From Deltaproteobacteria bacterium (GTDB taxonomy: Bacteria; Myxococcota; Myxococcia; Myxococcales; SZAS-1), in contig JAFEBB010000019.1 in NCBI GenBank assembly GCA_018266075.1, positions 1 through 64,000 on the forward strand: a stretch of 64,000 nucleotides of DNA, in the 5' to 3' direction. The notes beneath the pieces were generated by a model. That model did not search any database and had not been told where the DNA came from. It saw only the letters and a list, made by a program, of their open reading frames with translations. The translations under genes and the position numbers were made by a program. Shown piece by piece: positions 52,121 to 55,048 of this stretch. How positions within the stretch are numbered: position 1 is the stretch's first letter; each line of letters begins with the position of its first letter.

Positions 52121-52495
52121 ATGTCCGTCGAACGAGCACGCCGCTGGCCCCCGCGACAGCGCATCCACCTCACCCCCGAGGGCGAGGCGGCGCGCACCGC
52201 GTACCAGCAAGTGGTGAGCACGGCGCGCGGGGCCAACCTGGCCGCCGCCGAGCTCGACGCCAAGCTCGACGCCTGGGCCGGCCAGCTCGGCGTGCGCGCG
52301 AGCGACGGGGTGCTGCTCGAGGAGCTGGGCACACGGCCGCTCTCGGTGAACGACCTCGCGCGCGCGGTGGAGCCCTGCGGCCAGCGCGCCAGCGACGTGA
52401 AGGCCGGCGTGGATCGGCTCTACGGATCCGGGCTGGTGCAGCCGCCGCCGGCGCAGGAGCAGCCGGTGCCCCAGTCGAGCCCCTGGCGATATTAA
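52121..52495 (+). CDS. Small protein with winged-helix-like segment
   Basis: 124 residues. A basic start (RARRWPPRQRIHLTPEGEA) precedes a helix. Residues 60-105 (GVLLEELGTRPLSVNDLARA ... VDRLYGSGLV) have the spacing of a winged helix-turn-helix, suggesting DNA binding. GAGG lies 6 bases upstream. The stop TAA starts a TAACC-N5-GTT motif. Confidence 0.55.
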   Translation: MSVERARRWPPRQRIHLTPEGEAARTAYQQVVSTARGANLAAAELDAKLDAWAGQLGVRASDGVLLEELGTRPLSVNDLARAVEPCGQRASDVKAGVDRLYGSGLVQPPPAQEQPVPQSSPWRY

Positions 52496-52601: not shown

Positions 52602-53429
52602 TTAGCGCTTCTTGCCGGCTTTCTTCGGCGCAGGCTTCTTGGTCGCCTTCGGCTTGGCCGCGCGGGCGGGCTTTGCCGGCTTGGCGCTCTTCGCGCTCGG
52701 GGCGGGCTTCTTCGGCGCCGGACGCGGCGCCACCTCTTCGGGCGCGGCCTCTTCTTCGACGTCGACGGGCTCCGGGCGCGGCGCAGGCGCTGCCGTCGCG
52801 ACCTCGGTGCTGGCCACCTCGATGAGGATGGGATCGCGCAGGTAGGTGCGCGCGAACGCGGCCAGGGGATCGATCAGCGAGCGGGTGAAGATGAGCGTCT
52901 GCCGCCGCGGCGGGAGCCGGGTGACGATGCGCTTGAGCTGCGGCAAGAGCCCGTCGGCGACCATGTCGTCGGCGGCGTCGAGCACCACCATCTCGATCGA
53001 CGAGAAGTTCACCGCGCCCTTGTCCATGTGCTCGGTGAGCCGCTGGGGCACGGCGAGCAGCAGGTGGCGGCGCTCGCGGAGCTCGTTCTCCTGGGCCTGC
53101 ATCGCCCCGCCGGGGAGGATCTCCGTGACCTTGAACGGCCGCCCGTGGGCGAGCTGGTCGAAGTGCTCGTGGATCTCGGCGATGCGCTGCTTGGTGCGCG
53201 CCAGCACCAGGGCGCGGGTGCCGGCGAGGTGGCCCAGGCGCTCGATGAGGCCGATGAGGAAGGCGGTGGTGCGGCCCGAGCCCGGCGCCGAGACGGCGAC
53301 GATGTCCCGCCCCAGCAATGCCGGGGGGATGACCTTCATCTGCAGCGGCGTGGGAAGGCCGAGCTTCGCGCGCGCGATGTTGGTCATCGTGTCGCGGGTC
53401 AGACCCAGCGAAGCAAACCCCTCGCTCAA
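52602..53429 (-). CDS. Degenerate DEAD-box protein with Lys/Ala-rich tail
   Basis: 275 residues. Only the first RecA lobe of a DEAD-box helicase is present. The Q motif is kept (GLPTPLQ, Gln30). Walker A reads APGSGRTT with Arg53 in place of Lys, the DEAD box is DAAD (151-154) and SAT is replaced by TRS (182-184). A helicase C lobe is absent. Residues 215-275 are acidic Pro/Ala, then a Lys/Ala/Pro tail like histone H1. ATPase activity is unlikely; RNA or DNA binding is inferred. It starts at TTG 53429 with GGGAG upstream. Confidence 0.75.
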   Translation of the reverse strand: MSEGFASLGLTRDTMTNIARAKLGLPTPLQMKVIPPALLGRDIVAVSAPGSGRTTAFLIGLIERLGHLAGTRALVLARTKQRIAEIHEHFDQLAHGRPFKVTEILPGGAMQAQENELRERRHLLLAVPQRLTEHMDKGAVNFSSIEMVVLDAADDMVADGLLPQLKRIVTRLPPRRQTLIFTRSLIDPLAAFARTYLRDPILIEVASTEVATAAPAPRPEPVDVEEEAAPEEVAPRPAPKKPAPSAKSAKPAKPARAAKPKATKKPAPKKAGKKR

Positions 53430-53587
53430 GACTGCACTCCCTCGGAACAAGTGTACTTCTCGGGGGCGAGATTCTCCCCCACATGCGGCCGAGGCACAAA
53501 GGAATTCCACTCGCGGCCGGAGGGTGGATCGGGGGCCAGGCTTTCCCTGCGTCGGTTCGGGGCGCGCGCGTGCTTGGGGAACGGTAC

Positions 53588-53626: not shown

Positions 53627-54124
53627 CTAACGCCACACCACGCGCACGATGCTCAGCTCTTCTTCCCCGCTCGGCTTCTGCACCACCACCCAATCGCCCA
53701 CCTTCCGCCGCAGGAGCGCGCGCCCCAATGGGCTCTGCCAGCTCACCTTGCCCGCCGCCGCGTCCACCTCGTCCACGCCGACGATCTGGTAGGTCTTCTC
53801 GCGGCCGTCCTCGCCTTCCACGGTCACGGTCGCGCCGAACAGGACCACCTTGCCCTTCTGCGTCTTGGGGTCCACGACCTGGATCTTGTCGAGCCGCTTG
53901 TTCAGCCACTGCAGCCGCGAGTCGATCTGGCGAAGCTTGCGCTTGCCGTAGATGTACTCGGCGTTCTCGCTGCGATCCCCGTGCGCCGCTGCCGTGGCCA
54001 CCTCGTCCACGATCTTCGGACGCTCCACCGTGAGCAGCCGCTCCTGCTCGTCGATGAGCTTCTGGTAGCCCGCAGGCGTGATGTAGTTCGGCCCCTGCGG
54101 CCGCGGCTCCTCGTCGTCGCTCAT
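53627..54124 (-). CDS. greB: Transcript cleavage factor GreB
   Basis: 165 residues. The coiled-coil N-domain (YITPAGYQKLIDEQERL, GDRSENAEYIYGKRKL with the acidic tip) and the C-terminal FKBP-like domain (DWVVVQKPSGEEELSIVRV) are intact. YIYGKRKLRQID marks GreB rather than GreA. It rescues backtracked RNA polymerase. It lies 3 bases after ldcA, so the two are coupled. Confidence 0.93.
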   Translation of the reverse strand: MSDDEEPRPQGPNYITPAGYQKLIDEQERLLTVERPKIVDEVATAAAHGDRSENAEYIYGKRKLRQIDSRLQWLNKRLDKIQVVDPKTQKGKVVLFGATVTVEGEDGREKTYQIVGVDEVDAAAGKVSWQSPLGRALLRRKVGDWVVVQKPSGEEELSIVRVVWR

Positions 54125-54127
54125 GGG

Positions 54128-55048
54128 CTAGCGCGTGGGCGCTTCGTCGAGCGCGAAGGTCTTGGCGTCGGCGTCGAGCGTGGCCGAGATGCCCAGCGGC
54201 AAGATCGCGCTCGAGCGGTAGTGCCCGAACTCCGTCATCTTCAGCACCGGCACCGGGCGACCCTCGAGCGCGAACTGCACGAACTCGTCCTGGGCGTGCC
54301 CACGCTCCTCCTGCTCGATGCCCTCCAGGTGCCCCACCGCCATGCCCGCAATCCTCGACAGGTGCCCGCTGATGCGCAGGTGGTTGAGCATGTGCCCGAG
54401 GTCCTCGAGGTCCTCGTGCAGCTCTTCCCAGGCGAGGATCGCGCCGTCGAAGCTGGGCAGGAACGGCGTGCCGATGAGCCCGCGCAGCGTGAACAGGTTC
54501 GACGCGATGAGCTTTCCCGTCGCGCGCCCCGGCATCCACGACGCGCGCTCGCCCTCGTCGGGGATCGGGCCGGCCTCGGGCTTCAAGAACGTGCGCGAGA
54601 AGTGCGCCTGCGTGGCCTTGCGCGCCTTCGAGAGGCCCCACATCACGTTCTCGCCCAGATAGGTGACGAGGTCCGCCTTGGCGTTTGCGGCGAGCAGCAG
54701 CGCGGCGATGTCCGAGCTGCCCATGATCACCTTGGGATCGCGGGCGAAGTCGGAGAAGTCGAGCAGCGGGAGGATCTCCGCGGTCGTGGAGCCGCCGATG
54801 AGGCCGAACAGCCCGCGCACGTTCGGATCGCGGATGAGGGCCATGACGTCGTCGGCGCGCTCGCCCCGCGGACGGCACGAGTAGCCGGGCGTGCCCGTCA
54901 CGCTCTTGCCGAGCACGACCTTGAGGCCAAAGCCCTCGAGGAACTTCACGCCCTGCTTGGTGGGCTCGAGGCCCCAGCGGCCGGTGCCCGCCGAGGCGAA
55001 GACGGCCACCGTGTCGCCGGCCTTGAGACGAGGAGGAACGAGCGCCAT
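54128..55048 (-). CDS. ldcA: LD-carboxypeptidase (S66)
   Basis: 306 residues. The nucleophile motif is MGSSDIAALLLA (Ser112), with Glu in LAWEELHED and His in FGHYRSSAILPLG completing the Ser-Glu-His triad. It trims the terminal D-Ala from muropeptides in peptidoglycan recycling and is cytosolic (no signal). A MccF-like immunity role is the alternative. TACCTT lies 6 bases before ATG 55048. Confidence 0.9.
   Translation of the reverse strand: MALVPPRLKAGDTVAVFASAGTGRWGLEPTKQGVKFLEGFGLKVVLGKSVTGTPGYSCRPRGERADDVMALIRDPNVRGLFGLIGGSTTAEILPLLDFSDFARDPKVIMGSSDIAALLLAANAKADLVTYLGENVMWGLSKARKATQAHFSRTFLKPEAGPIPDEGERASWMPGRATGKLIASNLFTLRGLIGTPFLPSFDGAILAWEELHEDLEDLGHMLNHLRISGHLSRIAGMAVGHLEGIEQEERGHAQDEFVQFALEGRPVPVLKMTEFGHYRSSAILPLGISATLDADAKTFALDEAPTR

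Follow-up and report, generated by a model that had tools for sequence, protein, structure and literature searches.

A putative pseudohelicase reduced to a single RecA-like lobe is encoded in the genome of a Deltaproteobacteria bacterium (Myxococcales; SZAS-1), and the protein is very probably maintained and non-catalytic. It may well be a diverged extra copy of an RhlE-like helicase without lobe 2, kept as a single-lobe pseudohelicase whose lobe perhaps serves for docking, tethered by its tail. The stretch analyzed, called the window here, comprised 64,000 nt of contig JAFEBB010000019.1 (assembly GCA_018266075.1). The features of the locus are listed in Table 1. The start of the gene was a TTG at 53429 with the ribosome-binding-like AGGGAG 7 nt upstream. 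If translation began instead at the in-frame GTG at 53510, the protein would be 27 residues longer (302 aa).

Table 1. Coordinates of the single-lobe pseudo-DEAD-box gene, its parts, and its neighbors in the window.
Feature	Position	Strand	Basis
Pseudo-DEAD-box gene, single-lobe, 275 aa	52602..53429	-	ORF call, Pfam, sequence reading
RecA-like lobe 1, residues 1-206; motifs I, Ia, GG, Ib, II, III altered, Q motif intact	52812..53429	-	Pfam, alignments, AlphaFold2, Foldseek
Altered Walker A PGSGRTT, residues 49-55; catalytic Lys to Arg	53265..53285	-	Sequence, alignment
Altered DEAD box LDAAD, residues 150-154; catalytic Glu to Ala	52968..52982	-	Sequence, alignment
Acidic Pro/Ala/Glu linker, residues 207-237, pI 4.1, predicted disordered	52719..52811	-	Composition, AlphaFold2
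Basic Lys/Ala/Pro tail, residues 238-275	52605..52718	-	Composition, AlphaFold2; similar tails elsewhere in genome
GreB-type transcript cleavage factor, upstream neighbor, same strand, 197-bp gap	53627..54124	-	Pfam, NCBIfam
S66 LD-carboxypeptidase, upstream of greB	54128..55048	-	Pfam, NCBIfam
Convergent 124-aa ORF, downstream of pseudo-DEAD-box gene	52121..52495	+	ORF call

The reading frame matched Pfam DEAD at residues 27-183 (91 bits, E 8.2e-26), in agreement with the single RecA lobe that a preliminary description had assigned to these coordinates. All 11 NCBIfam models listed were DEAD-box RNA helicases; the matches were far below cut-off, and each ended with lobe 1. The window protein shared lobe 1 homology over 206 residues, the Q motif, and the fold with RhlE-like helicases of the same order, among them L001 of the host genome (contig C15; 561-aa frame; 39% identity) and L010, the best match outside the window among the matches scored (46% identity). 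These relatives differed from it in having GKT, DEAD, SAT, and the C lobe intact, and in carrying Arg/Gly-rich tails instead of Lys/Ala/Pro.

The motifs were compared with those of 40 homologues, comprising 37 RhlE-like genes of the same order (host genome included), 2 other helicases of the host genome, and 1 Acidiphilium gene; one of these rows, L031, was cut by a contig end. The family consensus was K53, E152, and S182 in 40/40 and A183 and T184 in 39/40. The window protein showed K53 to R (GKT to GRT), E152 to A (DEAD to DAAD), and SAT to TRS, and the loss of the Walker Lys, the DEAD acid, and SAT described earlier was thus borne out. The RNA-contact motifs were altered as well: Ia from PTREL to RTKQR, GG to PG, and Ib from TPGR to VPQR. 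As read from these motifs, the loss reaches RNA contact as well as ATP chemistry. The claim that all catalytic motifs had decayed went too far, since the Q motif (PTPxQ), which the preliminary description did not mention, and upstream Phe5 were intact and Gly50, Gly52, Thr54, Asp151, Ala153, and Asp154 were kept.

Among the lobe columns conserved in at least 95% of the 40 homologues, 24/60 were changed in the window protein; the next most deviant row, a distant helicase, had 16 changed. With motif boundaries assumed by us, the losses were 15/26 in motifs I, Ia, GG, Ib, II, and III, 9/30 elsewhere, and 0/4 in the Q motif (motifs versus elsewhere, one-sided Fisher p 0.034). The aligned residues suggest that the losses are modestly concentrated in the motifs; many conserved sites outside them were changed as well.

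The C lobe (motifs IV-VI) was absent from the protein, as had been proposed, and when C lobes taken from two intact relatives were run against the whole window by tblastn, the best E was 0.18. This search thus found no separately encoded C lobe in the window. Compared with an active DEAD-box helicase, the window protein had the lobe 1 homology and the fold and lacked the Walker Lys, the DEAD Glu, SAT, and lobe 2. Asp151 and Asp154 remain, and a split helicase is conceivable, in which an active atypical ATPase would work with a separate C-lobe protein. However, three catalytic elements are lost together, the window holds no C lobe, and the GKT-to-GRT change alone abolishes the ATPase of E. coli PriA (PMC4504706). 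An active enzyme is extremely improbable.

The lobe was searched against 60 genomes of the order, 147 of the class, and 195 of the phylum; the sets overlapped, each included the host genome, and at most 17-23 candidates per genome were scored in the class and phylum searches. No orthologue was found among the matches scored in the 195 phylum genomes, a result that applies to other families only, because all genomes besides the host's belonged to families other than its own. A scan of wider genome contigs gave no orthologue and one distant helicase (26%), and a scan of viral contigs with the window lobe gave no match. The pseudo-DEAD-box gene is known from one species only.

Motifs were read in 32 matches besides the window gene. 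DEAD was present in 32/32, and SAT and motif VI in 31/32, the exception being the truncated L031. L002, which was missed by the P-loop pattern, read TGTGKT. The preliminary description had suggested looking for the same substitutions in orthologues; the relatives whose motifs were read were intact. When the 27 DEAD-type loci of the host genome were scanned by regular expression, P-loop and motif II were recognized in 18, of which 17 had GK and only the window gene did not; the other 9 gave no pattern match.

As candidates for other half-helicases, the five shortest frames among the class-search matches listed (in G047, G064, G130, G136, and G133) were read, and none was a like case; the remaining class-search matches were judged by frame length alone. 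All five had GKT and DEAD. The frame in G064 ended at a contig end before SAT, and those in G130, G136, and G133 kept SAT and entered or completed the C lobe before their contigs ended. L067 (G047:C542), an RhlE-like gene in a low-completeness genome, kept SAT and lost its frame inside lobe 2, which may be a sequencing error.

Since the host genome keeps an intact RhlE-like gene, the window gene looks like a diverged extra copy. The terminal branch of the window protein was the longest in the lobe 1 tree (3.12 changes per column; next 1.46). Its placement beside a family f3 group had weak support (92/68) and could reflect long-branch error. A recent degradation, revealed by intact orthologues, had been named in advance as the case against a repurposed protein. 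Intact homologues do exist, but the host has its own intact copy besides the window gene, and a branch of this length makes a recent break unlikely.

A decaying pseudogene, here a helicase duplicate now drifting after the loss of its C lobe, would fit that branch, the lack of an orthologue among the matches scored in the 195 phylum genomes of other families, and the changes at 24/60 conserved columns, non-motif ones included. The base composition and the reading frame argue otherwise. The GC3 of the lobe was 0.973 (178/183), and that of seven neighboring reading frames was 0.91-0.97, whereas the flanking intergenic stretches had an overall GC of 0.68-0.73. If 0.70 is taken as the neutral value, a lobe GC3 this high would arise with a chance of about 1e-21. 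A GC3 like that of the neighboring genes argues against a decaying gene. The frame ran through 275 codons uninterrupted by stops or frameshifts, although the protein was 39-46% identical to intact homologues, and the chance of 275 neutral codons without a stop was about 0.005. The confident predicted fold, the AGGGAG before the TTG, and the orderly acidic-then-basic tail also stand against decay. Given the GC3, the open frame, and the divergence, recent decay is unlikely, and a decaying pseudogene in general is highly improbable.

AlphaFold2 gave a confident DEAD-box domain 1 with a pTM of 0.72 and five models in agreement. The pLDDT block means were 88-98 over residues 11-200, except for one block at 75, and 169/275 residues had a pLDDT of at least 90. 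Low pLDDT from residue 209 on indicated a disordered tail. The alignment used had 14 rows, all others being ordinary helicases, and the prediction may be pulled toward the family fold. The best PDB matches of the predicted lobe in Foldseek were DEAD-box domain 1 structures, and the retained fold of the preliminary description was upheld at the level of prediction. Descent from a helicase, loss of catalytic residues, and a kept fold, the last by prediction, mark the protein as a candidate pseudohelicase. From GC3, the open frame, and the modeled lobe, the repurposed protein proposed earlier appears maintained, folded, and non-catalytic. That proposal included RNA or DNA binding or helicase regulation; with the lobe's canonical RNA-contact motifs altered, any nucleic-acid binding would have to come from the tail.

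A role as an adenine-nucleotide sensor was also considered, in which the Q motif and a partial P-loop would bind AMP, ADP, or ATP unhydrolyzed and switch a tail-tethered factor. The Q motif lost 0/4 conserved columns, G50, G52, T54, D151, and D154 were kept, and isolated Hera domain 1 was crystallized with AMP, according to the entry titles (PDB 2gxs, 2gxq). However, the P-loop Lys is gone, and retention of 4/4 Q-motif columns is not significant, with a chance of about 0.13 when 36/60 are kept overall. Such a sensor is improbable.

The tail had 69 residues in total, not the approximately 60 described earlier, and the layout of an acidic segment followed by Lys/Ala/Pro was as described. Its basic part contained 13 Lys and 2 Arg and no acids. 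The arrangement of HMGA- and H1-like tails, an acidic segment and then a basic unfolded tail, was present by composition and pLDDT. Tails counted in eight relatives were Arg-rich, mostly Arg/Gly-rich; on this comparison of sequences, the Lys/Ala/Pro tail did not come with the helicase and was replaced or newly acquired.

When the tail was searched as a protein in the host genome, only itself matched. The codon pattern K[PA]AKK[PA]AK occurred at 8 places in this genome, and a reversed-pattern control gave none. Five of the eight were read and showed Lys/Ala/Pro stretches on a glyoxalase-like, an EcsC-like, and an SRPBCC-like protein (fold names assigned by eye), a free Lys-rich protein, and a frame on contig C87; the remaining three places lay in the same C87 stretch. 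Judged by composition, the tail type is common in the genome and not special to the pseudo-DEAD-box gene. With same-type tails on unrelated proteins, the earlier term histone-like is a fair description, but the uniqueness is gone. Lys/Ala/Pro stretches resembling histone H1 tails were noted at L106 (G000:C13), L107 (C1), L108 (C20), L109 (C30), L110 (C61), and L111 (C87).

In the CarD of the host genome (L106), a long acidic run preceded a Lys/Ala/Pro tail. M. xanthus CarD has an acidic segment and basic repeats that form an unfolded DNA-binding tail (PMC4374960). It resembles the window protein in the order of folded N-terminal domain, acidic segment, and basic unfolded tail, and differs in its longer tail and in an unrelated folded domain, which binds RNA polymerase and CarG. 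Tail composition alone is no proof of nucleic-acid binding.

The preferred explanation, the docking lobe tethered by its tail, would proceed as follows. A duplicate of a myxobacterial RhlE-like DEAD-box helicase would have lost lobe 2 together with the residues that hydrolyze ATP and grip RNA in the canonical way. The basic tail would anchor the protein to DNA or RNA, and a partner protein, most likely one from the RNA-metabolism or transcription machinery, would dock on the RecA lobe. An adenine nucleotide may still bind via the intact Q motif without hydrolysis. The combination of tail tether and docking lobe draws on analogy with published pseudohelicases and is offered as a tentative possibility.

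Two published pseudohelicases were compared. The GKT-to-GRT change marks Deinococcus radiodurans PriA as a pseudohelicase (PMC4504706). Like the window protein, it is a bacterial helicase derivative with GKT changed to GRT and motif II altered. It differs in its membership of a DNA helicase family whose pathway is known, in changes that are phylum-wide, and in an ATPase loss that was measured. Yeast Utp25 is a two-lobed DEAD-box pseudohelicase that has been proposed to be a helicase cofactor or scaffold (PMC9539457). Utp25/Def shares the DEAD-box fold, decayed motifs, and a disordered extension with the window protein; it differs in having both RecA lobes and an N-terminal extension and in being eukaryotic, essential, and conserved. 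These two examples suggest function through a partner and not by unwinding.

The dead lobe might act as a helicase decoy or regulator, competing or pairing with the intact RhlE-like helicase of its own genome. The intact paralogue L001 is kept, Deinococcus PriA shows evidence of binding the replicative helicase DnaB (PMC4504706), and Utp25 contacts the helicase Dhr2 (PMC9539457). However, the protein has no lobe 2 and has lost much of its RNA-contact surface, and this role is rather unlikely. A further reading, of fairly low probability, is a single-lobe pseudohelicase tethered to the nucleoid or RNA by an H1-like tail, with its lobe reused for docking, acting as a non-catalytic RNA-metabolism cofactor that perhaps controls the RhlE-like paralogue.

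Pseudohelicases are rare in print, and no bacterial single-lobe DEAD-box pseudohelicase appeared among the papers listed by literature searches. Pseudohelicases as such are already known; the new aspect is one reduced to a single lobe. If true, the bacterial one-lobe DEAD-box example would mean that half a helicase is useful without ATP chemistry, and the protein would be a small test object for roles of the DEAD lobe apart from unwinding. The recurring basic tails also point to a tether module in the lineage.

The neighboring greB hints at a transcription role for the pseudo-DEAD-box gene. Among 18 genomes searched, greB adjoined a helicase match only in the host genome, and elsewhere the two were in different places; the neighborhood therefore gives no clue to function. 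A promoter and terminator scan found none, and the convergent ORF had no match in Pfam or NCBIfam. The upstream GreB-type gene scored over the NCBIfam greB cut-offs, and two further Gre-like matches occurred in the same genome.
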